Source: Desulfolutivibrio sulfoxidireducens (GTDB lineage: Bacteria; Desulfobacterota; Desulfovibrionia; Desulfovibrionales; Desulfovibrionaceae). Taken from it: 64,000 nt of DNA. The DNA is taken from the NCBI RefSeq assembly GCF_013376475.1, contig NZ_CP045508.1:1299501-1363500 (forward strand). Direction: 5' to 3'. The position numbers and the translations under genes were made by a program. Shown here in pieces: positions 34,245-56,109 of this stretch. The notes beneath the pieces were generated by a model. That model did not search any database, was not told the origin of the DNA, and was given only the letters and a program-made list of their open reading frames with translations. Within the stretch, counting starts at the first letter, position 1, and every line of letters starts with the position of its first letter.

Positions 34245-34679
34245 ACTGGTGCGGCGTTCCGTAAATAAAAATGCATTTTTCTGGGAGGAAAGCCGTTATT
34301 TTCCGTGGCGTGACAACAATCTTTACCAAGAAATAATGCACAGCTTATTGCGGAATATGACACTAGAACCTCTTGCAATGCGATGTCGATAAACAATACA
34401 TCTTATGTTGTTGGCTGGGTCCGTGTGCTGCGACCGAGTTTTTCGTCGATATGGTGGATGTGCGGCCAGTCTTGTTTCCGGACGCGTCAGCCGTCGGTGC
34501 GGCGTGATGAATGGTGAGGCCTTGGCTTGAAAAACGGTGTCATCGATGCGGCATGTCGCTTCGAGGTCCACGTGACTGGAGGCGGGGATGCCGCTTTTTG
34601 AAAATGTCTCGAATGTATCTTTCGCACGAGAAGCGTACAACGCGCTCGTCACGATTGTGCATGGGAAGTGGAGCATTTC
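34245..34679. other. Intergenic region with promoter of the activator gene, no gene seen
   Basis: About 435 bp, AT-richer in its first 150 bp. No sigma-54 consensus and no strong sigma-70 pair were found; short frames present lack ribosome sites. Confidence 0.5.
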
Positions 34680-36068
34680 ATGGAAAAGACTGAACGCTTT
34701 GGCCTGGATTTTTCCACATTCGTGCGGCTTATCGACAACCTCCATGACGAAATCATCATCTACGACAACAACTATCGTATGTTGTACGTCAACAAGGCCT
34801 GTGAACGACATTATGGCTTCACGCAGGAGGAGATGATCGGGCTGCCGTTCTGGGAGGTCGTCCGGAAACACCGCGCCTGGGACCGCTCCGTGCTGCCTGC
34901 GGTATATAAGTTCAAGCGCCCGGTCAAACAGGAGCAGAAAACATACCTTGGCCTTGATGTGTTGAGCATTGCAACGCCGATTCTTGACTGTAATGGAAAT
35001 GTTGAATACGTCTTGTTCAGCATCCGGGACAACTACCATGAAGGAAAAATTCCCTGCCGCGGCGAACTGACAACGGAGCAGGACGAGGTTGAGAATGCCC
35101 CGCCAAGCGACCTCATCTATCACAGCCGGCCCATGGAGATCGCTGTGGAGTCGGCGCGGAAGGTAGCCAGCATCAGTTCCACCTGCCTTCTGCTAGGCGA
35201 ATCCGGTTGCGGCAAGAGTCTGTTGGCGAAATTCATCCATGCCACCGGCAATCGGGCCACAAAACCCTTCGTGGTGGTCAACTGTGCCGCCATTCCCGAA
35301 CACCTCTTCGAATCCGAGCTGTTCGGGCATGTGCGCGGCGCCTTTTCCGGGGCGGTGCAGCGCCGGGGGGGACTCTTCGCCCAGGCCGAGGGGGGGACGC
35401 TGTTTCTGGATGAGATTTCCGAGTTGCCCCTGCCCATGCAACCCAAGATCCTGCATGCGGTCCAGGAACGCGAATACCGCCCCGTGGGCAGTTCCCAGAC
35501 AGTCACGGCGAATGTGCGCATCCTGGCCGCCTCCAACAAAAACCTGGAACACATGGTCCAAAGCGGGGCGTTTCGCCAGGACCTTTTCTTCCGGCTCAAC
35601 GTCTTCGACATCCTGATTCCGCCGCTACGGGAGCGGCGCAACGATATCGTGCCGCTGTTGCACCACTTCCTGAACCGTTTCGGCAAGCAGCACGGCAGGG
35701 GCAAGCGCCTGTCCAGCGACGCCCAGACCCTTTTGTGCCAGTATTCCTGGCCCGGAAACATCCGGGAACTGGCCCATCTGGTGGAGCGCCTCGTGGTCAC
35801 CGTGGAGCCCGAGGAGATCACTGTGGACCACCTTCCGGCTTCGATCTACGAGACCTCGGCCCAGGCCGTGTCCTCGACAATGGGCGAGGAAGGGCTGGAT
35901 GACGCCCTGAGCGCCATGGAACGCAAACTGATCCTGAATGCCCGCGCTCTCCACGGCAGCACGCGCAAGGTGGCCGCTGCCTTGCATATCAGCCAGACCC
36001 GCGCCTCCCGTCTCATTCACAAATACACCTCCAAGACGAAGCGGAAACAACTCATCGAGTCGGAATAG
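34680..36068 (+). CDS. PAS domain sigma-54-dependent transcriptional activator
   Basis: 462 residues. PAS domain about 10-125, AAA+ domain about 145-375 with Walker A LGESGCGKS and Walker B TLFLDEI, and a Fis-type helix-turn-helix at the end (STRKVAAALHISQTRASRLI). It has no receiver, so it is probably ligand- or redox-activated through PAS. The sigma-54 contact loop reads GAFSGA rather than GAFTGA. ATG 34680 has GGAG seven bases upstream. It precedes a sigma-54 promoter and a perfect palindrome and is the likely activator of the transporter/molybdenum-hydroxylase operon. Confidence 0.9.
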   Translation: MEKTERFGLDFSTFVRLIDNLHDEIIIYDNNYRMLYVNKACERHYGFTQEEMIGLPFWEVVRKHRAWDRSVLPAVYKFKRPVKQEQKTYLGLDVLSIATPILDCNGNVEYVLFSIRDNYHEGKIPCRGELTTEQDEVENAPPSDLIYHSRPMEIAVESARKVASISSTCLLLGESGCGKSLLAKFIHATGNRATKPFVVVNCAAIPEHLFESELFGHVRGAFSGAVQRRGGLFAQAEGGTLFLDEISELPLPMQPKILHAVQEREYRPVGSSQTVTANVRILAASNKNLEHMVQSGAFRQDLFFRLNVFDILIPPLRERRNDIVPLLHHFLNRFGKQHGRGKRLSSDAQTLLCQYSWPGNIRELAHLVERLVVTVEPEEITVDHLPASIYETSAQAVSSTMGEEGLDDALSAMERKLILNARALHGSTRKVAAALHISQTRASRLIHKYTSKTKRKQLIESE

Positions 36069-36225: not shown

Positions 36226-36242
36226 TTGGCATGGCCATTGCT
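36226..36242 (+). promoter_or_regulatory. Sigma-54 promoter for EamA/molybdenum-hydroxylase operon
   Basis: TTGGCATGGCCATTGCT has GG at 36228-36229 and GC at 36240-36241 with correct spacing and only one departure from TGGCACG-N4-TTGC. Predicted start ~36253, leaving a ~207-nt leader containing an inverted repeat CAGGTGTT/AACACCTG near 36391-36414. Confidence 0.82.
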
Positions 36243-43933: not shown

Positions 43934-45343
43934 TCAAGGCGCCGCGTGGCGTCCGGGCCGCGGCTCCGCCGCCATCCCCCTCGGGGTCTGGCAGACCATG
44001 TCCAGGCCGTATTCCTTGATCTTGCGGTACAGGGTCTTGCGCCCGATGCCGAGCATGTTCGCCGCCAGGGTCCGATTGTTGGACACGTACTCGAGCACGC
44101 GCACGATGAACTCCCGCTCGTGCTGCTCCAGGGTGGGAAAAGGCATGCAGTTCCCCGAATCGTCCAGGCACTTGGCGATGTCGTTGGGCAGGCATTTCCG
44201 GGTGATCAGATCGTTCTCGGCAAGGATGATGCCGCGTTCGATGACGTTGCGCAGTTCGCGGACGTTGCCCGGCCAGTGGTAGGACATCAGACACTGCAAA
44301 GCCTGGCTGGACAGCTTGTAGGGCTGGCGATCCGGATAGAGATGCCCCAGGAAAAACTCCAGCAGCAAGGGGATGTCCTCCTTGCGCTCGCGCAGGGGAG
44401 GTATCTCGATGCGGAAAACGTTGAGGCGATGGAACAAGGCCTCATGGAAGCGCCCCGTCTCCACCTCCTTGACCAGGTTGCGGTTGGTGGCGAAGAAGAA
44501 ACGGATGTTTACGCTCCGCTCGTCCTTGTCGCCCACCCGGCGGTATTTCTGGGACTCCAGGATGCGCAGGAGCATGGACTGCACTTCCAGGGAAAGCTCG
44601 CCCACCTCGTCAAAGAACAGGGACCCGTTGTTGGCCAGGGAAAGCAGGCCGTCCTGGGAATCGACAGCCCCGGTGAAGGCTCCCTTGCAATAGCCGAACA
44701 GTTCGCTACGCAACAGCTCCTTGTTGAACGCGCCGCAGTTCTTGACGATGAGGTGCTTTTCGGCCCGGCTGCTTCTGTGGTGCAGGGCGTTGACCACGAT
44801 GTTCTTGCCCACGCCGCTTTCCCCGGTGATGAGCACCGGGGTGAGGGTCGGCGCGACCTTGTCGATGAGGTAGCGGATCTCCGAGACGGCCGCGGAGTGG
44901 CCGATGAGATGGCTCAGGGGCTCGCTGTTCTTGTTTTGCCGCAACAGATGCAGTTCCTTGTGCAGCATGGAACGTTGATAGGCGCGTTCGATGATCAGGG
45001 TCAGCCGGTCCAGGGAAAAGGGCTTGGTGATGTAGTCATAGGCCCCGATCTTCATGGCCTCGACGGCATTGGTGACCTCGGAATACCCGGTGATCATGAT
45101 CACTTCCACATGGGGCATGGTCTCCCGGAAACGCTCCAGCAACTGCATGCCGTTGCCGTCGGGCAGGCGGACATCCAGGACGATGACGTCGAAATTCTGT
45201 TGCGCCGCCAGTTTCAAGGCCTGGCCCGCGGTCGTGGCGGTCGTGATCTTGCGGTTGGCCGAGGCCATTTCCTTCTGGACGAGCCTGCAGATGGACGGCT
45301 CATCGTCCACCACGAGAATATTGATGAAATCGGAAGTGTACAT
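43934..45343 (-). CDS. NtrC-family sigma-54 response regulator
   Basis: 469 residues. Receiver with D13/D14 and phospho-acceptor D57 (VIVLDVRLPD), AAA+ domain with ITGESGVGKN, intact GAFTGA and SLFFDEVGE, and Fis-type helix-turn-helix (TLAANMLGIGRKTLYRKI). It follows the PAS kinase gene by nine bases, so kinase and regulator form a two-component pair. It is in the operon led by the iron alcohol dehydrogenase, and therefore probably activates the two divergent sigma-54 promoters upstream. Confidence 0.93.
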   Translation of the reverse strand: MYTSDFINILVVDDEPSICRLVQKEMASANRKITTATTAGQALKLAAQQNFDVIVLDVRLPDGNGMQLLERFRETMPHVEVIMITGYSEVTNAVEAMKIGAYDYITKPFSLDRLTLIIERAYQRSMLHKELHLLRQNKNSEPLSHLIGHSAAVSEIRYLIDKVAPTLTPVLITGESGVGKNIVVNALHHRSSRAEKHLIVKNCGAFNKELLRSELFGYCKGAFTGAVDSQDGLLSLANNGSLFFDEVGELSLEVQSMLLRILESQKYRRVGDKDERSVNIRFFFATNRNLVKEVETGRFHEALFHRLNVFRIEIPPLRERKEDIPLLLEFFLGHLYPDRQPYKLSSQALQCLMSYHWPGNVRELRNVIERGIILAENDLITRKCLPNDIAKCLDDSGNCMPFPTLEQHEREFIVRVLEYVSNNRTLAANMLGIGRKTLYRKIKEYGLDMVCQTPRGMAAEPRPGRHAAP

Positions 45344-45352
45344 GGCTCGGCC

Positions 45353-46561
45353 TCATTCCACGCAATACGGCAAGATGGTTTCGAAGGATGCGCCTTCGGC
45401 GTAGGTGCCGTCGACGGTGATCTCGCCTCCATGATTTTTGATGATATTATAACACGTGGAAAGCCCTATGCCTATACCCTGGCCGGCCGGTTTGGTCGTG
45501 AAAAACGGATCGAAGAGTTTGTCCAGGTTATCCTTGGGAATGCCGTGCCCCGTGTCGATGACCTTGAGCAGGACCATGCGGCCCTCGACCGCGGTGTGGA
45601 TGGAAATCTCGCCGGAATCCCTGACCGCGTCCAGGGCGTTGAGCACGAGATTGAGCATGACCTGCATGAGCTCGCCGGGGTGGCCCAGGACGTAGGGCTC
45701 CTTTTCCGAGAGGGAAAGGCTGATCACGTTCCGGGGCAGCCTGGACAGGCGCGGATGTAAAAGCTGCAGGCAGTTCCTGACCACGTCGTTGAGGTTCACG
45801 ATGGAAGAGATGCGGGACCCGCGATGCCCGAAGGTCAGCAGGTTGCGCACAATCTCCGAGCATCTGCTGCATTCCTTGAGAATGATCTCCAGGTATTCCC
45901 TGAACACTTCCTGGATGTCCGGGTGGATGCCGTCCCGCCCCGGATTTTTGGCCAGCTTTTCCAGGCGGTGGAAGAGGGCCTCGGCAAAGCCGCTGATGCT
46001 GGTGAGCGGATTGTTGATCTCGTGGGCCACGCCCTCGGCCAAAACGCCGATGGTGGCCATGCGCTCGGCCTGGAGATATTTCGCCTGGTACTGCTTCTCC
46101 AGGGTCACGTCGCGTTGCAGGAGGATGGCCCGGTTGGGGTGGCCATGGGCATCGCGCATGAGCGAGGCCGTACACTCGATCTGCCTTTTCTCGCCGTTTA
46201 GGGCCATGATCTCCAGGTGGCGGCACACCCGCCCGGCCCCCTCCATGGCCTGGGTCAGGGCGCAGTGCGAACAGGGCCTGTCCTGGCCCTTGAAGATCTG
46301 GTGGCAGGTCCGGCCGTGGGGATCCACGTCGGGAAAGCGTTCCCGGAAGGCGTCATTGACCGAGAGGATCTCGTAGTCGAGCGTCAGCACGGCCATCACG
46401 TCGGGGATGCCGTTTAAGATGGCCTGGATGTCCTGGCGTTTCTGATTCAGTTCGATATTGGAGGCCCGCAGCTCGCTGATGGTCCGCTGCACCTCCTTGA
46501 AATAACCGAGCTTGATCGATTCGATGCCGATGATTTCGTCAAGGCTCGTGGGGTGCGACAT
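45353..46561 (-). CDS. PAS sensor histidine kinase (NtrB-type) with Cys-rich PAS
   Basis: 402 residues, soluble. N-terminal coiled region, a PAS domain ~45-165, HisKA with AEGVAHEINNPLTS, and HATPase with NLVLNALDA, DTGHGI and GIGIGLS. The PAS contains CHQIFKGQDRPCSHC plus another Cys, a spacing suggestive of a metal or redox site. ATG 46561 overlaps the alcohol dehydrogenase stop by one base (TGATG), and the regulator gene follows. It probably senses a metabolite of alcohol oxidation or redox state. Confidence 0.9.
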   Translation of the reverse strand: MSHPTSLDEIIGIESIKLGYFKEVQRTISELRASNIELNQKRQDIQAILNGIPDVMAVLTLDYEILSVNDAFRERFPDVDPHGRTCHQIFKGQDRPCSHCALTQAMEGAGRVCRHLEIMALNGEKRQIECTASLMRDAHGHPNRAILLQRDVTLEKQYQAKYLQAERMATIGVLAEGVAHEINNPLTSISGFAEALFHRLEKLAKNPGRDGIHPDIQEVFREYLEIILKECSRCSEIVRNLLTFGHRGSRISSIVNLNDVVRNCLQLLHPRLSRLPRNVISLSLSEKEPYVLGHPGELMQVMLNLVLNALDAVRDSGEISIHTAVEGRMVLLKVIDTGHGIPKDNLDKLFDPFFTTKPAGQGIGIGLSTCYNIIKNHGGEITVDGTYAEGASFETILPYCVE

Positions 46562-47703
46562 CACCAGGCCTCATAGTAGATGTTGAGGATGTCCTTCCAT
46601 GTCGCCGGACGCGGATTCGTCAAAAGACAGATGTCGTTGACGGCGTTGCGGCTGACCTGGGGCAGTCTGGTCTTGTCCGGGAGGATCTCGCGCAGGCGCG
46701 AGGGCAGGCCGCACTCCTCGCGAAGCTGCTCCACCATCTCGATGCCGAAAAGCGCCGTCTCTTCGTCGTCGGCCAGGGTCCGGCCGGTGATGATCGTCCC
46801 GATCCTGGCCAGCTTCTTCAGACTCACCGGCAGATTGTAGCGCATGACGTGGGGCAGCAGCAGGGCATGGGCCATGCCGTGCACGATGTCGTACATGCCG
46901 CCCAGGGCATGGGCCAGGGCGTGCCCCAGGCCGACGCTGGCGTTGGTGAAGGCCATGCCCGACCAGGAGCCGGCCACGGCCAACTGCTCCAGGTCGTCGA
47001 TGTGCAGCCGGGCGATGGCGGTGCGGATGTGCCGGATGAGCAGGTCCAGGCCCCGCAGGCTCATGACCTCGGTGAAGGGGCTGGCGATGGGCGACACGTA
47101 GGATTCCACGGCATGGGCCAGGGAGTCGAACAGGGGCGGGATGACCAGGTCGCGGGTCATGGTCGTTAAGAGCAGCGGATCGGTGATGGAGATGTTCGGG
47201 ACCAGGGTCCGGCTGATCACGGTCATCTTGAGCCGGCGCTCCACGTCGGTGATGACCGTGAACTGCGAGATGTTGGATTCGCTGCCCATGGTTGTGGGCA
47301 CGAAGACCATGGGCGGCAAGGGGCGCTTGACCAGGTTGGCTCCCTCGTAGTCGCGGATGGTTCCGCCGTTGCTGACCACCAGGGCGATGCCCTTGGCCGC
47401 GTCCATGGGGCTGCCGCCTCCCAGGGCCAGGACCACATCCGCGCCTTCCTTCTTGTACAATTCGGCCCCCCGCTGCACCTGATAGTCGCGGGGGTTGGCG
47501 ACCACATCGTTGAAAAAGACGTAGTCCAGGCGTTCCTCGTCGAGCAGCTCGAAGAGTTTTTGCGTCCAGCCGGCCTCCTCGACCCCGGGATCGGACACGA
47601 CGAAAATCTTGGAGGCGCCCAGACGCTTGGCGAATATCCCGGCGTATTTCAGGCTGCCCCGGCCGAAGATGAGTTCCGGAATGGCGAATTTGAAAATGTC
47701 CAT
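46561..47703 (-). CDS. Iron-containing alcohol dehydrogenase (second copy)
   Basis: 380 residues, Fe-ADH family. Shown by GGGSPMDAAKG, PTTMGSESNISQF, DSLAHAVESYVSP, GHALAHALGG and HGMAHALLLPH. It shares only the family fold with the gene at 21713-22894. It is the first gene of an operon with a PAS kinase and sigma-54 regulator and has its own sigma-54 promoter ~225 bp upstream. ATG 47703 follows AAGAAGC. Probably oxidises a short-chain alcohol. Confidence 0.93.
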   Translation of the reverse strand: MDIFKFAIPELIFGRGSLKYAGIFAKRLGASKIFVVSDPGVEEAGWTQKLFELLDEERLDYVFFNDVVANPRDYQVQRGAELYKKEGADVVLALGGGSPMDAAKGIALVVSNGGTIRDYEGANLVKRPLPPMVFVPTTMGSESNISQFTVITDVERRLKMTVISRTLVPNISITDPLLLTTMTRDLVIPPLFDSLAHAVESYVSPIASPFTEVMSLRGLDLLIRHIRTAIARLHIDDLEQLAVAGSWSGMAFTNASVGLGHALAHALGGMYDIVHGMAHALLLPHVMRYNLPVSLKKLARIGTIITGRTLADDEETALFGIEMVEQLREECGLPSRLREILPDKTRLPQVSRNAVNDICLLTNPRPATWKDILNIYYEAW

Positions 47704-47935: not shown

Positions 47936-47953
47936 TTGCATCTCCGATGCCAG
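47936..47953 (-). promoter_or_regulatory. Sigma-54 promoter for Fe-ADH/two-component operon
   Basis: Reverse strand reads CTGGCATCGGAGATGCAA: GG and GC at the correct spacing with one mismatch in the -12 TTGC box. Predicted start near 47926. Confidence 0.78.
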
Positions 47954-48115
47954 CCGACATCCCTTGTCCCCGCGTGCCACCGCGCGGCGGTCGCAAGCCC
48001 CGCCGTGCAAGGCGGCCGGGCGCTTCGAGCGCGGCCCCGCCGGGTCCGGCCCGCCCGCGGAACAGGTCCCGTTTTGGGACACCATATCATTATGACCCAG
48101 AGGAATGCGGGCAAC

Positions 48116-48130
48116 GGGTCATTGTGACCC
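48116..48130. promoter_or_regulatory. Perfect palindrome between divergent sigma-54 promoters
   Basis: GGGTCATTGTGACCC, 15 bp, six-base perfect arms around TTG. It is centred ~197 bp from the leftward start and ~175 bp from the rightward start, so one bound activator could serve both. A half-site TATGACCC is at 48091-48098. Confidence 0.7.
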
Positions 48131-48271
48131 GCGTCCGGGCCGACATCGCGGGTCGGAACCGGACGCCGGGTGTGGAGGCTGCGCGACGATTGTGGCTATC
48201 ATCCTGATTTTTTGCCTGAATTTCGTCGGAATACACCGCCGGCCGGGAAAATCGGAACATGGTGTGCGTGC

Positions 48272-48287
48272 TGGCCTTCAAATTGCA
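48272..48287 (+). promoter_or_regulatory. Sigma-54 promoter for Zn-ADH/HdrA/Flx operon
   Basis: TGGCCTTCAAATTGCA: TGGC and TTGC at correct spacing, GG at 48273-48274 and GC at 48285-48286. Predicted start ~48298, 150 bp before the adh start codon. Confidence 0.78.
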
Positions 48288-48447
48288 CTAGTCCGGAGCA
48301 AACGTCGATCGTGGGCCATCACGATTGCGGTATCCGTCTCAAGAAGACATTTTTTGCAATATTGAGGGCTCAAGAATATATATGATGGATATATAATAAT
48401 TTTTCATATCAATGCTCATTAACCATTTTAATACATGGGAGGAATCC

Positions 48448-49500
48448 ATGAAGGCATTCGTTATGCATGGCATTGGCAAGGTTGGCATCGTCGATAAGCC
48501 CATTCCTGAGCCAGGTCCAAACGATGTCATTCTCAAGACCACAAGCGCCCTCATCTGCACCTCCGATGTACACACTGTCGGGGGCGCAATCGGTGACAGA
48601 AAAAATCTTACCTTGGGACATGAAGCCGGCGGCATCGTGTACAAGATCGGCAGTGCGGTCACAGGCTTCAAGGAAGGCGACCGTTGCGTGGTCAACGCCA
48701 TCACCCCGTGCTACAAATGTCAAAACTGCCTGCGCGGATTTCCGTCCCAGTGCGGCGAGGCCTGCGGCGGCTGGAAATACGCCAACATCAAGGACGGCTC
48801 CTTCGCGGAATACTTCCATGTCAATGACGCCATCGCCAACCTGGTCAAGGTGCCCGACGACGTCACCGACGAGGCGGCCCTGTACACCACGGACATGATG
48901 GCCACCGGGTTCATGGGCGCCGAACACGGCAACACCCCCCTGGGCGGCAGCGTGGCCGTCTTCGGCCAGGGCCCTGTGGGCCTCATGGCCACGGCCGGGG
49001 CGCGGCTTCTGGGCGCCGGCCTGATCATCGCCGTGGAGAGCGTGCCCAAGCGGCAGGAACTGGCCAAGTACTACGGCGCCGATGTCATCGTGGACTTCAG
49101 CAAGGTCGACGCCGTGGCCGAGATCAAGCGCCTGACCGGCGGCGAGGGTGTGGACACCGCCATCGAGGCCCTGGGCATGCAGCCCACCTTCGAGAACTGC
49201 GTCAAGGCCACGCGGCCCGGCGGCACCATCTCGAACTGCGGATATCACGGAAAAGGCGAGTACGTGAAGATTCCTCGCGTCGAATGGGGCTTCGGCATGG
49301 CCGACAAGACCATCCGCACCGGCCTTTGCCCCGGCGGCAGCGAGCGCATGGGCCGCCTGTTGCGCCTCATCCAGAACGGACGCATCGATCCCACCAAGTT
49401 GACCACGCATCGCATGCCCTTCTCCGACATCGAAAAGGGCTTCCGGATCATGGCCAACAAGGAAGACGGGGTCATCAAGCCGATGATTCTCTTCTCCTAG
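48448..49500 (+). CDS. adh: Zinc-dependent secondary-type alcohol dehydrogenase
   Basis: 350 residues, medium-chain ADH. Catalytic zinc ligands are in ALICTSDVHT (Cys37) and GHEAGG (His59); structural zinc Cys are in CYKCQNCLRGFPSQC. Rossmann motif GQGPVG near 175. Closest in motif to bacterial isopropanol/ethanol dehydrogenases of anaerobes. ATG 48448 is preceded by GGGAGGA. It is the first gene after the sigma-54 promoter; a GC-rich hairpin separates it from hdrA. The pairing with Flx/Hdr genes matches the ethanol-oxidation locus described for Desulfovibrio vulgaris. Confidence 0.92.
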   Translation: MKAFVMHGIGKVGIVDKPIPEPGPNDVILKTTSALICTSDVHTVGGAIGDRKNLTLGHEAGGIVYKIGSAVTGFKEGDRCVVNAITPCYKCQNCLRGFPSQCGEACGGWKYANIKDGSFAEYFHVNDAIANLVKVPDDVTDEAALYTTDMMATGFMGAEHGNTPLGGSVAVFGQGPVGLMATAGARLLGAGLIIAVESVPKRQELAKYYGADVIVDFSKVDAVAEIKRLTGGEGVDTAIEALGMQPTFENCVKATRPGGTISNCGYHGKGEYVKIPRVEWGFGMADKTIRTGLCPGGSERMGRLLRLIQNGRIDPTKLTTHRMPFSDIEKGFRIMANKEDGVIKPMILFS

Positions 49501-49545: not shown

Positions 49546-49663
49546 CGCGCATGATGGACAATTTGATGCGTCGATCGGTATAATCAGGAATACGAATGCA
49601 TGGCCTGTGCGAGTACGGAGTTTTTTCTGGCACGGACCTATCCGCGGGGAGGAATTTAGCCTG

Positions 49664-52600
49664 ATGATCAGCGAAAACAACGTGTTGAATCAAGCCACAG
49701 ACGTCGTCGGAGCGGTGATGGTCGTCGGTGGAGGCATCGCCGGCATCCAGTCGGCGCTCGATCTCGCCAACTCCGGCTTCTTCGTCTACCTCGTGGAGAA
49801 AAGCCCGGGCATCGGCGGGACCATGGCCCAGTTGGACAAGACGTTCCCGACCAACGACTGCGCCATGTGCATCCTCTCGCCCAAACTGGTCGAATGCGGC
49901 CGCCATCTCAACATCAAACTCATGACCCTGACCGAACTGGTGGACGTACGGGGCGAGGTGGGCAACTTCACCGTGAGCCTGCGCAGGAAGCCGCGCTACG
50001 TGGACACCACCAAGTGCATCGCCTGCGGTCTGTGCGCGGAGAAGTGTCCCAAGAAGGTGCCAAACGACTTCAACGCCGGGATCGACAAGCGCAAGGCCGC
50101 CTACATCATCTACGGCCAGACCGTCCCGTTGAAATACGCCATTGACGGCGACCACTGCCTCTACATCCAGAAGGGCAAGTGTCGGGCCTGCGAGAAGTTC
50201 TGCCCGGCCGGAGCCATCAACTTCGCGGACAAGGAGGAACTCTTCGACGTCTCGGTCGGTTCGATCATCCTGGCGCCTGGATTCAAGGCCTTCGACCCCT
50301 CCGTGCTGGCGTCCCTCGACTACGCCGGCATCCCGGACGTGGTCACCAGCCTGGAATACGAGCGCATCCTCTCCGCCTCGGGACCGTACCTGGGCCATCT
50401 GGCCCGGCCGTCGGACCATGCGGAGCCCCAAAAGATCGCCTGGCTGCAGTGCGTGGGGTCGCGCTCCATGAACACCTGCGACAACGGCTATTGTTCCAGC
50501 GTCTGCTGCATGTACGCCATCAAGCAGGCGGTCATGTCCGCCGAGCATGCCTCGGGCAAGCTGGAACAGACGATCTTTTTCATGGACATGCGCACCCACG
50601 GCAAGAACTTCGAGCGGGCCTACGAGGACGCCAAGGTCAAGGGCGTGCGTTTTCTGCGATCCAGGCCCCACACCTTCGTGCCCGGACCGGAGGGCAAGGG
50701 TGTGTCCGTGCGCTATGCCGACGAGTCCGGCCGCGAGATCGTCGAGCTTTTCGACATGATCATCCTGTCCGTGGGCCTGGAGGCCCCCAAGGACGCCGTG
50801 GCCCTGGCCCGGGGCGCGGGCATCGAGCTGGACAAGCACCGCTTCGTCTCCTGCTCGGACTTCGCGCCCGTGGCCGCCAGCCGCAAGGGCATCTACGTGT
50901 GCGGGGCCTTCGACGGTCCCAAGGACATCCCCCAGTCCGTGGTGGCGGCCAGCGCCGCGGCCTGCGGCGCGGGCGGGGATCTGGCCGCGGCCCGGGGCAC
51001 CATGACCCGCCAGCCTGAGGTCGTCACGGCCGTGGACGTGACCGGCGAACCGCCCCGGGTCGGGGTGTTCATCTGCTCCTGCGGCTCGAACATCGCCGGG
51101 GTGGTGGATGTGAAGGCGGTGACCGAATACGCCGCCACCCTGCCCGGCGTGGTCTTCACGGCGAACAACATGTTCACCTGCTCCCAGGACGTGCAGGACA
51201 AGATGGCCGAGGTGATCCGGGAGAAGGGCCTCAACCGCATCGTTGTCGCGGCCTGCACCCCGCGCACCCACGAGCCCCTGTTCCAGGAGACCATGGAGGC
51301 GGCGGGGCTGAACAAGTACCTGTTCGAGATGGCCAACATCCGCAACCAGGCCTCCTGGGTGCATGGCCACGAGCCCGACAAGGCCACCGAGAAGTCCAAG
51401 GACCTGGTGCGCATGGCCGTGGCCAAGGCCATGCTGCTTCAGCCCCTGGCCGAACCCACGCTTTCCATCAACCCCGTGGCCCTGGTCATCGGCGGCGGCG
51501 TGGCGGGCATGGTCGCGGCCCTGGAACTGGCGCGCCAGGGCTTTCCCACGCACATCGTGGAGCGGCGTCCCGAACTCGGCGGCAACGCCCGTTTCCTGAA
51601 CCACACGGCCAAGGGCGGCGACATCGGCGCGTTCCTGGCGGACCTCAAGACCAGGATCGCGGCCGATTCCAGGATCACGGTGCATGCCGCGGCCGAGGTC
51701 AAGTGCGCGGAAGGCTTTGTCGGCAACTTCAAAACCACCCTGGTCACGGCCGAGGGCGCCACGGTGATCGAGCACGGCGCGGCGATCATCGCCACCGGGG
51801 CCCGGGAAAGCAAGCCGACCGAATACGCCTACGGCAAGCACCCCGGGATCATGACCCATCTGGAGTTCGACCGGGTCCTGGCCTCGGGCGCGACCCCCCA
51901 GTGCGTGGTGTTCATCCAGTGCGTGGGCTCCCGTGAGCCCCAGAGGCCGTACTGTTCCCGGGTGTGCTGCACCCACTCGGTGAAGGCCGCCATACACCTC
52001 AAGGAGCGGGACCCCGATTGCCGGGTGGCCATTCTCTACCGCGACATGCGCACCTATGGCGACCGCGAGGAACTCTATACCAAGGCCAGGAAACTCGGGG
52101 TGATATTTATCCGCTACGGCCTGGACAACAAACCCAGGGTCAAGCCCAAGGGGGCCGTTGTCGAGGTCACGGTCAGGGATCACGTCCTTGGCTGGGACGT
52201 GGTGTTTCCGGCCGACGTGGTCAGCCTGGCCACGGCCATCGAGCCCAACGACAACGAGGCCCTGGCCAAGATGTTCAAGATCCCGCTGGATTCCGACGGC
52301 TGGCTCTTCGAGGCCCATCAGAAGCTGCGGCCCGTGGACTTCGCCACCGACGGCGTGTTCATGGCCGGCATGGCCCATTATCCCAAGCCCGTGGAGGAAT
52401 CCATCGCCCAGGCCCAGGCCGCCGCGGCCAGGGCGGTCACGGTCCTGTCCAAAAAGGAGATTACCACGCCGGGCACGGTGGCCTGCATCGACACCACCCG
52501 GTGCACCGGCTGCGGCCTGTGCTGGCAGATCTGCCCGTACGGGGCCATCGGCCAGGACGACAAGGGATTCGCCACGGTCAACGAGGTCCTGTGCAAGGGA

Positions 52601-52696
52601 TGCGGCACCTGCGTCGCGTCGTGCCGCTCAGGCGCCCCCACCCTGCGCGGCTTCACCAAGACCGAGGTCATGGCCCAGATAACGGCGCTCTTGTAA
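49664..52696 (+). CDS. hdrA: Double-length HdrA-type flavin/Fe-S subunit
   Basis: 1010 residues, about 1.5 times a normal HdrA. Residues ~1-460 are one FAD/Fe-S module: GGGIAGIQSALDLANSG, then ferredoxin motifs CIACGLCAEKCP and CRACEKFCPAG, then NGYCSSVCCMYAIK. Residues ~465-1010 are a complete second HdrA: VGVFICSCGSNIAGVVDV, CTPRTHEPLFQ, GGGVAGMVAALELARQG, and a C-terminal ferredoxin domain CTGCGLCWQICP and CKGCGTCVASC. HdrA carries the bifurcating flavin. Here it would link the Flx NADH module to ferredoxin or another acceptor. No HdrB or HdrC gene follows, so the acceptor side is unusual. Confidence 0.9.
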   Translation: MISENNVLNQATDVVGAVMVVGGGIAGIQSALDLANSGFFVYLVEKSPGIGGTMAQLDKTFPTNDCAMCILSPKLVECGRHLNIKLMTLTELVDVRGEVGNFTVSLRRKPRYVDTTKCIACGLCAEKCPKKVPNDFNAGIDKRKAAYIIYGQTVPLKYAIDGDHCLYIQKGKCRACEKFCPAGAINFADKEELFDVSVGSIILAPGFKAFDPSVLASLDYAGIPDVVTSLEYERILSASGPYLGHLARPSDHAEPQKIAWLQCVGSRSMNTCDNGYCSSVCCMYAIKQAVMSAEHASGKLEQTIFFMDMRTHGKNFERAYEDAKVKGVRFLRSRPHTFVPGPEGKGVSVRYADESGREIVELFDMIILSVGLEAPKDAVALARGAGIELDKHRFVSCSDFAPVAASRKGIYVCGAFDGPKDIPQSVVAASAAACGAGGDLAAARGTMTRQPEVVTAVDVTGEPPRVGVFICSCGSNIAGVVDVKAVTEYAATLPGVVFTANNMFTCSQDVQDKMAEVIREKGLNRIVVAACTPRTHEPLFQETMEAAGLNKYLFEMANIRNQASWVHGHEPDKATEKSKDLVRMAVAKAMLLQPLAEPTLSINPVALVIGGGVAGMVAALELARQGFPTHIVERRPELGGNARFLNHTAKGGDIGAFLADLKTRIAADSRITVHAAAEVKCAEGFVGNFKTTLVTAEGATVIEHGAAIIATGARESKPTEYAYGKHPGIMTHLEFDRVLASGATPQCVVFIQCVGSREPQRPYCSRVCCTHSVKAAIHLKERDPDCRVAILYRDMRTYGDREELYTKARKLGVIFIRYGLDNKPRVKPKGAVVEVTVRDHVLGWDVVFPADVVSLATAIEPNDNEALAKMFKIPLDSDGWLFEAHQKLRPVDFATDGVFMAGMAHYPKPVEESIAQAQAAAARAVTVLSKKEITTPGTVACIDTTRCTGCGLCWQICPYGAIGQDDKGFATVNEVLCKGCGTCVASCRSGAPTLRGFTKTEVMAQITALL

Positions 52697-52764
52697 AGAG
52701 CGCGCGGCGGGAAAGGTCCTTTTGCCAAGCACGGGACATCCGCCTTCCCAGGAGAGAGGGAAAC

Positions 52765-53235
52765 ATGAGCGATTGCATGGATAATAACGGCTTCAGGCCG
52801 CGCATAGCGGCTTTTTTCTGCAACTGGTGCACCTACGGCGGCGCGGACCTGGCCGGGGTGAACCGACTCCGGTATCCGGCCGATTTCCGGGTGATCCGCC
52901 TGCCCTGCACGGGCAGGATGAATCCCGAATTCATCCTGCACGCCTTCCGCCAGGGTGTGGACGGCGTGTGGGTGTCGGGCTGCCATCCCGGCGACTGTCA
53001 CTACATCGCGGGAAATATGTATGCCCGCCGTCGTTTCACGATGCTCAAGGAGCTTCTGGAATACGTCGGGCTGGATCCAGGGCGGCTGCACTTCTCCTGG
53101 ATATCCTCGGCCGAGGCGGAAAAGTTCCAGCGCACGGCCAAGGAGGTCATCGAGTCGGTGCGGGCGCTTGGGCCTGTCGATGCGGCGAACGCCGCCACCA
53201 AGACCATGGTCATGGAATTGCGGAAGGTGATCTGA
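52765..53235 (+). CDS. flxD: MvhD/FlxD-type iron-sulfur electron-transfer subunit
   Basis: 156 residues. AAFFCNWCTYGGADLAG and GCHPGDCHYIAGN are the conserved Cys motifs of MvhD-type [2Fe-2S] proteins that dock onto HdrA. Ribosome site GGAGAGAGG before ATG 52765. Its stop overlaps the next start by one base (TGATG). It passes electrons from the Flx module to the HdrA flavin. Confidence 0.9.
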   Translation: MSDCMDNNGFRPRIAAFFCNWCTYGGADLAGVNRLRYPADFRVIRLPCTGRMNPEFILHAFRQGVDGVWVSGCHPGDCHYIAGNMYARRRFTMLKELLEYVGLDPGRLHFSWISSAEAEKFQRTAKEVIESVRALGPVDAANAATKTMVMELRKVI

Positions 53236-54218
53236 TGAAAGCGAGAGCCAAAAAGATACGGGAAATTGCCAGGCGGCTGCTCGCCGAGGGCAAGGTGGAC
53301 GTGGTCGTCGGCTACGCCAGGGGCACCTCGCCCATGCGTGAACAGCCGTTTTTCGCCCGCACCCCCGAGGAGGCCGATCAGTTGACCTGGTCGAGCTTCT
53401 GTGTCGGGAATACGGCGAACTCCCTGCCCCAGATCGCCCGGGCCGGGGAACGCGCGGCCGTGGTCGCCCAGGGCTGCGCCAGCCGCAACGTCGTCGGCCT
53501 GATCGTGGAAAAGCAGGTGCGGCGCGACAAGGTGTACGTCATTGGCGTGCCCTGCCTGGGCATGATCGACGCGCGCAAGGTGGAGGCCCTGATCGCCCGG
53601 TCCGAGGGTCGGCGGGTCGAGGCTGTGGAGGAGGACGGCGAGGACCTGGTGGTGCGCGGCCGGGATTTTGAAAAGCGCCTGAAGCGCAAGGAGCTTTTGC
53701 GCGACAACTGTTACACCTGCCGGCATAGAAACCCTGTCCTGGCCGACGAACTGGCGGCCGAACCGGTGGCGGAGACCGGCGGCGGCGACATCGACGCGTC
53801 CGCCGCCCCCTGGGAAAAGTTCTCCCCGGCCGATCGCTGGGCCAGGTTCCGGGAGACCTTCCAGGACTGCATCCGGTGTTATGCCTGCCGCGACGCCTGT
53901 CCCCTGTGCTACTGCACAACCTGCTTCGTGGACGACTCCAGGCCGCAGTGGCTGGGCAAGACCCAGGACATGACGGACGTGACCTCCTTCCACCTGTTGC
54001 GGGCCTTCCACTGCGCCGGACGGTGCACCGACTGCGGAGCCTGCGAATCGGCCTGTCCCCAGGGCATCAAGGTGCGGCGGCTGACTTCCAAGATCGAGAA
54101 GGACATCCGCACGCTCTACAACTACGAGGCCGGCATGGACCCGGAAGCCGTTCCGCCCATGACCACATTCAAGGCGGACGATTCCGACGACTTCATCAAG
54201 CAGGGCGGTGAGTCATGA
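53235..54218 (+). CDS. Flx-cluster subunit with FrhB-like and 4Fe-4S dicluster domains
   Basis: 327 residues. N-terminal ~165 residues resemble the FrhB/coenzyme F420 hydrogenase beta fold (VGVPCLGMIDARKVEAL). The C-terminal half has two [4Fe-4S] sites, CIRCYACRDACPLCYC and CTDCGACESACPQG. Located between FlxD- and FlxB-type genes with overlapping codons on both sides. It most likely corresponds to the FlxC-type electron-transfer subunit. Confidence 0.82.
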   Translation: MKARAKKIREIARRLLAEGKVDVVVGYARGTSPMREQPFFARTPEEADQLTWSSFCVGNTANSLPQIARAGERAAVVAQGCASRNVVGLIVEKQVRRDKVYVIGVPCLGMIDARKVEALIARSEGRRVEAVEEDGEDLVVRGRDFEKRLKRKELLRDNCYTCRHRNPVLADELAAEPVAETGGGDIDASAAPWEKFSPADRWARFRETFQDCIRCYACRDACPLCYCTTCFVDDSRPQWLGKTQDMTDVTSFHLLRAFHCAGRCTDCGACESACPQGIKVRRLTSKIEKDIRTLYNYEAGMDPEAVPPMTTFKADDSDDFIKQGGES

Positions 54219-55273
54219 TGACGGCATACAAGATACTCGGCAAGGACGCCTTCGACGGTTTCTTCCGCAATCTTGCGGAGGGGCGGGAGGTCTTCGCCCC
54301 GGTCCAAAAAACCGGCAAGATCGTCTGGGCCCCGATACACAGCGCCACGGACGTGGACTGGGGCCTGGACAACACGGACATGTCCCCCAAGGAGTTCTTC
54401 TTCCCCCAGACCGAGTGTCTGATGCGCTTTACGAACACGGACGGGGAAGGCGGCAGGGTCATGGTCCCGGTCGCGCCGTTGGCCACGCCGCGCGTGCTTC
54501 TGAACATCCGGCCCTGCGACGCCAAGGCCTTGCGTCTCCTGGACCGCATCTTCGTCCAGGACGAGACGACCGACGACCCCTACTGGCGTGACAAGCGGGA
54601 AAAGACCACCCTGATCGGCCTGGGCTGCGCCAATCCGTGTCCGGAGTGCTTCTGCACCAGTGCGGGTTGCGGACCCTTCCACGAGGAAGGCCTGGACATC
54701 CTGCTCACGGACCTGGGCGACCGGCTCCTGGTCAAGCCCTTAAGCGGGAAGGGCCAGGCCCTGGTCAAGGACCTGCCCGAGGCCGCGCCCGGGGACGTCG
54801 CCCAGGCCGGGAAGCTCGCGGCCGCAGCCGAGGCCGCCGTGGCCACGTATCCGGGCTTCGAGCCGGCGAAGCTGGCCGGGCGCGCGGTGCTCGACATCTA
54901 TAACCTGCCACTGTGGTCGCGCCTTTCCGAGACCTGCTTGAACTGCGGCACGTGCACCTTCGTGTGCCCCACCTGCCACTGCTTCGACATCCAGGACGAG
55001 GTCAAGGGCGAAGCCGGACGCCGGGTCCGCAACTGGGACACCTGCATGCAGCGGCTTTTTACCGAGCACGCCTCGGGGCACAATCCGCGCGGCGAGAAAC
55101 GCGACCGGGTGCGCCAGCGCTTCATGCACAAGTTCACGTACATTCCCATGAGGCGGGACGGCGAGCTGGGCTGCGTAGGCTGCGGCCGGTGCGTCCGTTT
55201 CTGCCCGACTAACATCGACGTGCGCGAGGTGGTACGGCGCATGTGCGAGGATGTGGAGGCGATGAGCAAATGA
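54215..55273 (+). CDS. 4Fe-4S dicluster subunit (FlxB/AsrA-like)
   Basis: 352 residues. RPCDAKALRLLDRIF and CANPCPECFCTSAGCG near the N-terminal half, then two ferredoxin-like sites CLNCGTCTFVCPTCHC and CVGCGRCVRFCPTN. This is the sulfhydrogenase-beta/anaerobic sulfite reductase A type of electron carrier found with FAD/NAD subunits. ATG overlaps the previous stop (ATGA), and its own stop overlaps flxA. Confidence 0.85.
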   Translation: MMTAYKILGKDAFDGFFRNLAEGREVFAPVQKTGKIVWAPIHSATDVDWGLDNTDMSPKEFFFPQTECLMRFTNTDGEGGRVMVPVAPLATPRVLLNIRPCDAKALRLLDRIFVQDETTDDPYWRDKREKTTLIGLGCANPCPECFCTSAGCGPFHEEGLDILLTDLGDRLLVKPLSGKGQALVKDLPEAAPGDVAQAGKLAAAAEAAVATYPGFEPAKLAGRAVLDIYNLPLWSRLSETCLNCGTCTFVCPTCHCFDIQDEVKGEAGRRVRNWDTCMQRLFTEHASGHNPRGEKRDRVRQRFMHKFTYIPMRRDGELGCVGCGRCVRFCPTNIDVREVVRRMCEDVEAMSK

Positions 55274-56109
55274 ACAATCCCTATCTGCCGTATCCGGTGC
55301 GCATTGCCGACGTGCGCGTGGAGACCGAGGACAAGAACCTGCGTTCCTACTGGCTCACGTTCGAAAACAAGGACGCCGCCGCCGCGTTTCGTTACCAGCC
55401 AGGCCAGTTCGCCGAATTGTCCATCGCGGGTTTCGGCGAGATCCCCATCGGCATCGCCTCAAGCCCCACCGAGGGCCAGGATCTGCTCTTCACGGTGAAC
55501 AAGGCCGGCGTGGTGACCACCAAACTCCACGCCATGCAGCCGGGCGACGTCATGGGCGTGCGCGGCCCCCTGGGCAAGTGCTATCCCCTGGCCGCGTCCG
55601 AGGGCAAAAACATCGTGATCATCGCCGGCGGCTTTGCCGTGACCACGTTGCGGGCCACCATGGTCTGGCTGCTTCATCCGGACAACCGTCCGAAGTACGG
55701 CGACATCACCTTCATCTACGGGGCGCGGGCCCCGGGCATGCTCCTGTACAAGGACGAGATGAGGGCCTGGCAGGGGCGCGACGACGTGCGCTGCCACATC
55801 ACCGTGGACCGGGAGGCGGAGGGTTGGGACGGCCTGGTGGGCTTCGTGCCGGCGGTGACGGAAAGGGTGGCCCCAAGCCCGGACAACGCCGTGGCCCTGG
55901 TCTGCGGCCCGCCGGTCATGATCAAGTACACCCAGCCGGTGCTGGACAAGCTGGGCTGGCGGGCGGAACAGATCATCCTGTCCCTGGAAAACCGCATGAA
56001 GTGCGGCATCGGCATCTGCGGACGCTGCAACGTCGGTCCGTACATGGTTTGCAAGGACGGCCCTGTCTTCACCAAGGCGGAACTGGACGTCCTGCCGAAG
56101 GAATATTGA
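55270..56109 (+). CDS. flxA: NAD(P)H-oxidising FAD/2Fe-2S subunit (FlxA)
   Basis: 279 residues, ferredoxin-NADP reductase fold. FAD site with YQPGQFAELSI and PIGIASSP, NAD domain with AGGFAVTTLRATMVW and CGPPVMIKY, and a C-terminal [2Fe-2S] motif CGIGICGRCNVGPYMVC. It would accept NADH from the alcohol dehydrogenases and feed HdrA. Last gene of the operon; a GC-rich stem (56121-56129 with 56142-56150) follows. Confidence 0.9.
   Translation: MNNPYLPYPVRIADVRVETEDKNLRSYWLTFENKDAAAAFRYQPGQFAELSIAGFGEIPIGIASSPTEGQDLLFTVNKAGVVTTKLHAMQPGDVMGVRGPLGKCYPLAASEGKNIVIIAGGFAVTTLRATMVWLLHPDNRPKYGDITFIYGARAPGMLLYKDEMRAWQGRDDVRCHITVDREAEGWDGLVGFVPAVTERVAPSPDNAVALVCGPPVMIKYTQPVLDKLGWRAEQIILSLENRMKCGIGICGRCNVGPYMVCKDGPVFTKAELDVLPKEY

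Follow-up and report, generated by a model that had tools for sequence, protein, structure and literature searches.

Genes flanking the intergenic region

The window, i.e., the whole stretch of DNA analysed (64,000 bp), corresponds to positions 1299501-1363500 of the complete 4.16 Mb chromosome of Desulfolutivibrio sulfoxidireducens. By its relatives, the DNA is placed in the Desulfovibrio group, near Solidesulfovibrio. Coordinates below are window positions. Two gene clusters diverge from a 744-bp intergenic region, and the gene content that a first-pass annotation had assigned to each of them proved right:

43934..45343, minus strand: NtrC-type response regulator (receiver, AAA+ domain with GAFTGA, Fis-type HTH with an RKTLYRK helix)
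45353..46564, minus strand: soluble PAS histidine kinase, with three conserved cysteines (C-xn-PC-x2-C) in the PAS domain
46561..47703, minus strand: Fe-ADH, ErcA-like, constantly associated with the kinase and regulator genes; metal ligands kept
48448..49500, plus strand: Zn-dependent medium-chain dehydrogenase (Zn-ADH), secondary-alcohol (isopropanol) dehydrogenase-like
49655..52696, plus strand: long HdrA (1013 aa), with a cysteine at residue 72
52750..53235, plus strand: FlpD/MvhD-like (FlxD) subunit
53232..54218, plus strand: FrhB-like iron-sulfur protein (FlxC-like)
54215..55273, plus strand: FlxB-like iron-sulfur subunit (sulfhydrogenase beta type)
55264..56109, plus strand: FlxA-like NAD-binding flavoprotein (sulfhydrogenase gamma type)

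The leftward unit (Fe-ADH, PAS kinase and regulator, hereafter the cassette) was found in about 30 related loci. The RKTLYRK helix is constant among the aligned regulators. The C-xn-C-x2-C pattern of the PAS domain is kept in the other kinases aligned, and these cysteines could possibly form a redox or metal site. Among 14 families, ErcA (NCBIfam NF041833) is the best match of the cassette Fe-ADH, at 396.6 bits, which is below the family cut-off of 550. The protein retains the metal ligands of Fe-ADHs and shares only about 37% identity with Fe-ADH2, a second type of Fe-ADH encoded in related loci; no close Fe-ADH2 orthologue was found in this genome (best match 43%). Since the cassette Fe-ADH accompanies the kinase and regulator irrespective of the operon attached, a regulatory role is plausible, and the protein may act as an ErcA-like regulatory partner instead of carrying the main catabolic activity.

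The best PDB matches of Zn-ADH, extending over residues 1-349, are secondary-alcohol (isopropanol) dehydrogenases of the TbADH type. Equivalents of the catalytic zinc ligands, which we take to be numbered Cys37, His59 and Asp150, are aligned. The NADP-binding Gly-Ser-Arg is absent (AVESVP vs AVGSRP in the PDB relatives), and the replacement of its glycine by glutamate suggests that Zn-ADH uses NAD. A search of the operon products and of the Zn-ADH-HdrA gap, which is only 154 nt, revealed neither HdrB nor HdrC; ORFs of both types occur in the equivalent gap of one related locus (L127). Residue 72 of HdrA is a cysteine here and in the genome designated G002. Most of the close homologues found (L213-L222) carry an in-frame TGA at this position (TNDCAM-stop-I) and are hence probable selenoproteins. 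A TGA-containing HdrA paralogue is present at G000:C1:2161072-2164089.

Promoters and palindromes of the intergenic region

The following elements lie between Fe-ADH and Zn-ADH:

47937..47953, minus strand: leftward sigma-54-type promoter CTGGCATCGGAGATGCA, core TGGCATCGGAGATGCA at 47952-47937
48087-48098, unstranded: palindrome TCATTATGACCC, revealed by repeat finding, 32 bp to the left of GGGTCATTGTGACCC centre to centre
48087..48127, unstranded: composite enhancer-like element TCATTATGACCC-N17-GGGTCATTGTGA, the right palindrome of which runs on to 48130
48116-48130, unstranded: palindrome GGGTCATTGTGACCC, named in the first-pass annotation, centre 48123
48271..48287, plus strand: rightward sigma-54-type promoter CTGGCCTTCAAATTGCA, core TGGCCTTCAAATTGCA at 48272-48287

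Both of the divergent sigma-54-type promoters described earlier are present, and both feature -24 GG and -12 GC elements at the correct spacing. The -12 G of the leftward promoter, which faces Fe-ADH at 47703, is at 47938, and transcription is predicted to start at about 47926; its -12 element reads ATGCA vs the canonical TTGCA (A for T). The rightward promoter faces Zn-ADH at 48448, with the -12 G at 48285 and a predicted start at about 48297. The genome contains rpoN, and the GAFTGA motif of the regulator is that of a sigma-54 activator. Six TGGCNYNNNNNNTGCW sites are found in the 64 kb vs 2.7 expected; at the expected frequency, the probability of two divergent sites in 744 bp is about 5e-4 (Poisson estimate). 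No sigma-70-like promoters were found in the intergenic region, where counts were at shuffle level, and no Rfam families were detected there. The Zn-ADH leader (48300-48447), which starts right after the promoter, has a GC content of 36% (63% in the window; 33% in the G002 leader), and this AT-rich segment could carry some other control.

The first-pass annotation had regarded a single palindrome, nearly equidistant from both starts, as a shared enhancer. A shared element is present, and GGGTCATTGTGACCC is unique, as the pattern GGGTCANNNTGACCC occurs at this single place in the 4.16 Mb genome (reversed control, 0). The element comprises two palindromes, not one, whose inner half-sites face each other at a distance of three helical turns. 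As a strict pattern, the composite likewise occurs at 1 place in the genome (reversed control, 0). Near-equidistance holds for the midpoint of the composite (48107), from which the right -12 G lies 178 bp away and the left one 169 bp; the single palindrome, at 162 and 185 bp, is less evenly placed. A conserved twin palindrome at such distances is, by sequence, a candidate site for a remote activator.

Elsewhere in the window, a second sigma-54 activator (34668-36068) features a PAS domain, GAFSGA and a Fis-type HTH. After its gene comes the window's highest-scoring sigma-54 site, TTGGCATGGCCATTGCT (36226-36242); an EamA-like transporter gene and a xanthine-dehydrogenase-type operon lie downstream of this site. 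An inverted repeat, GAGTCG...CGACTC, is located between the activator gene and this site.

Conservation of the twin palindrome

Five divergent loci were aligned: those of this genome, of G002 and G001 (same genus) and of G058 and G046 (another family). Both palindromes and the rightward -24/-12 elements occupy equivalent positions in the alignment, and mean column identity elsewhere is 49%. The spacing between the palindromes is 32 bp in all five loci; one group of other loci features a 34-bp spacing.

A matrix trained on few sites assigned 19-38 bits to further, untrained sites beside the same regulator, while the background maximum in 1.01 Mb of other bacterial DNA was about 14.2-14.6 bits. 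For a held-out test, a matrix built solely from the five divergent loci was applied to 28 other regions, some of which are near-identical, one of which (L208) had been found via the motif itself and one of which (L176) had a widely set gap; the top position fell in the expected gap in 25 of the 28, vs 1.05 expected by chance. A recognisable composite is absent from three related regions (L120, L040 and L179). A sequence-only model searched against 59 genomes retrieved mainly cassette sites, about one per genome, and had one match in this genome (E 6e-4).

Some searches were set aside. The loose GGTCATNNTGACC scan with 2 mismatches gave more than 2000 matches per strand genome-wide and was uninformative. 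Strict-pattern matches in the G053 repeats, G047:C44, G038:C7, G009, G029 and G036:C1 had matrix scores close to background and were left out of the count. Nor do Zn-ADH relatives elsewhere point to the control region; for instance, the G048 protein (79% identical) is accompanied by neither HdrA nor a nearby composite. No relative was found in viral contigs.

Operons attached to the control region

The operons joined to the cassette, all of which have alcohol- or aldehyde-oxidation functions, differ among lineages. G002 shares with this genome the set formed by Zn-ADH, long HdrA, the FlpD/MvhD-like protein, FlxC, FlxB and FlxA. The attached genes of G001, G058 and G046 encode an iron-sulfur protein, a tungsten-type aldehyde:ferredoxin oxidoreductase (AOR) and a B12/radical-SAM protein; no AOR orthologue above threshold was found in this genome or in G002. 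Another group carries a divergent Fe-ADH2 gene, and most other family members carry Fe-ADH2 downstream of the regulator, followed by Hdr and Flx genes where the contig allows. In the regulator tree, the two Zn-ADH loci and the AOR group are sisters (joint support 0.999), so the tree does not give the direction of the operon swap.

A composite outside the cassette was identified in G026 (L208 9888-9928), before moeA and a gene for a molybdenum aldehyde oxidoreductase (Mop). This element, TCGTTTTGACCC-N17-GGGTCAAAACGA, is perfectly palindromic and is accompanied by a separate sigma-54 promoter 191 bp away, and moeA-mop is likely a further target of this regulator family. A G039 site before moeA-mop (L209 6765-6801; E 0.05, sigma-54-like site at 104 bp) was too weak to be counted.

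The claim of an ethanol/alcohol regulon is supported by comparison as far as alcohol and aldehyde oxidation is concerned. Ethanol itself is unproven, because the solved structures nearest to Zn-ADH are those of secondary-alcohol dehydrogenases, the operon lacks HdrB and HdrC, and a close orthologue of the ethanol Fe-ADH is absent from the genome.

Promoters of related loci and alternative explanations

Related regions were scanned with a generic sigma-54 matrix that had been assembled by hand after the published consensus; the threshold was the 99.99% background level. A promoter directed towards the attached operon exceeds the threshold in 32 of 32 regions, at about 178-205 bp from the composite midpoint in most of them, and the rightward promoter has an equivalent in G002, G001, G058, G046 and the Fe-ADH2 loci. 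Cassette-ward promoters are much rarer, which bears on an alternative reading: sigma-54 and the enhancer might control rightward transcription only, with the left -24/-12 elements arising by chance and Fe-ADH, kinase and regulator expressed constitutively from some other promoter. Most related loci indeed have no good cassette-ward site, and none was found by the same matrix scan in G001 and G058. Loci of the Fe-ADH2 type have the enhancer downstream of the regulator gene, a position from which it could not act on the cassette promoter as it would here, and Kazakov et al. (PMC4641369) gave DVU2405-DVU2399 alone as the target of the Desulfovibrio vulgaris activator DVU2394. Yet a good cassette-ward promoter lies 169 bp from the midpoint both here and in G002, its -24/-12 letters kept while the spacer has changed (P about 0.001). 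A weaker candidate occurs at 172 bp in G046, and the intergenic region offers no sigma-70-like promoter to take over. We therefore regard one-sided control as unlikely, though it is an alternative of some weight. Positive autoregulation, which the first-pass annotation had put forward without restriction, is thus predicted as a lineage-specific property: its sequence backing is limited to this genome, G002 and, more weakly, G046, and it does not hold generally among the related loci.

Other readings concern the palindromes. The dyad GTCA-N3-TGAC is generic, and that the adjacent regulator binds it is itself a prediction from sequence; the palindromes might thus be bound by an unlinked regulator, e.g., of the CRP/FNR or Rex type, and merely lie close to both promoters. 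This is improbable, as the composite occurs mainly beside this regulator family, with a fixed 32-bp (or 34-bp) spacing and a fixed distance from the sigma-54 promoter that is typical of NtrC-type enhancers. The same recurrence beside regulator orthologues makes the adjacent NtrC-type regulator, as originally proposed, the likely binder. That short motifs merely came together by chance in GC-rich intergenic DNA is hardly credible. Single short motifs are not rare (six sigma-54-like sites were reached in 5 of 100 window shuffles), but the held-out test contradicts such a reading, as do genome-wide uniqueness, matrix scores over background and conservation in independent genera. All things considered, we estimate at roughly 0.8 the probability that 47936-48287 is a bidirectional sigma-54 control region in which regulator-bound twin palindromes drive both operons.

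Comparison with known systems

Among the closest known systems is that of DVU2394. DAP-chip and EMSA linked this regulator to the adh-hdr operon DVU2405-2397 (PMC3333781), and it has been described as a sigma-54 activator of DVU2405-DVU2399 (PMC4641369). An NtrC-type regulator, a target comprising ADH and Hdr/Flx genes and sigma-54 dependence, which is predicted here, are common to the present locus and to DVU2394/DVU2395 with DVU2405-2397 of D. vulgaris Hildenborough. An ADH and Hdr/Flx proteins are indeed encoded by the target operon here, the ADH being of a different class, and the Fe-ADH2-hdr-flx loci analysed have the same gene content as the adh-flx-hdr operon DVU2405-2397. The regulator is probably of the DVU2394 type, as judged from a cassette common to the 30 or so loci, all of them other than the Hildenborough locus, and from one regulator tree. 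Unlike in the DVU2394 system, the target here consists of Zn-ADH and a long HdrA without HdrB/C, is divergent from the cassette, and is matched by a second sigma-54 promoter facing the cassette. The DVU2394 site was reported to be a direct repeat conserved no further than D. vulgaris Miyazaki (PMC3333781). The site found here, a twin palindrome, has no obvious match to that repeat, but a twin palindrome is also a direct repeat of palindromes, and both descriptions may concern one kind of site.

Pseudomonas ercA adjoins a sensor kinase gene and has a reported role in regulating ethanol use (PMC12997753). The ErcA/ErcS pair, as described there, likewise ties an Fe-ADH-like gene to a sensor kinase within an alcohol-oxidation network. 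In contrast, the cassette couples a soluble PAS kinase to an NtrC-type regulator, and its Fe-ADH is under the NCBIfam ErcA cut-off. FlxABCD-HdrABC of D. vulgaris (Ramos et al. 2015, cited in PMC10084766) similarly combines HdrA and FlxA/B/C/D-like proteins with an adjacent ADH; the operon described here differs in the absence of HdrB and HdrC and in its long HdrA, most homologues of which are probable selenoproteins. Sigma-54 and the AdhR activator control alcohol dehydrogenases in Clostridium beijerinckii as well (PMC7017808); organism and genes are different, and the likeness is one of description only.

Proposed mechanism and significance

Observed are the sites with the spacing between them, the fact that they recur beside one regulator family, and the swapping of operons. 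From these sequences we infer binding by the regulator, sigma-54 use, an inducer, looping and a feedback loop, as follows. The phosphorylated regulator (45343-43934) would bind the paired palindromes at 48087-48130 and, through DNA looping and its AAA+ domain, would open the rightward promoter about 178 bp away, switching on the Zn-ADH/HdrA/Flx operon. The leftward promoter, at about 169 bp, would also be opened in this lineage, and expression of Fe-ADH, kinase and regulator would establish positive feedback. The inducer would be an alcohol or an aldehyde, possibly sensed via the PAS kinase and the ErcA-like Fe-ADH. Across the order, the cassette, probably of the DVU2394 type, would have kept its enhancer while being joined to different alcohol- or aldehyde-oxidation operons according to lineage.

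A bolder scheme, which we advance tentatively, is that the cassette and the twin palindrome form a portable alcohol/aldehyde sensor, with Fe-ADH as part of the sensor, its state read by the kinase via the cysteine-bearing PAS domain, and at least four oxidation operons plugged in.

Very probably, an alcohol-linked two-component regulator activates alcohol-oxidation genes through a conserved twin-site switch. A regulator family whose D. vulgaris site was reported as conserved in no more than one relative would gain, in the composite, a DNA target common to the order; the composite would also be a means of finding regulon members in new genomes. For sulfate reducers, this implies that one control unit may serve different alcohol- and aldehyde-oxidation enzymes.
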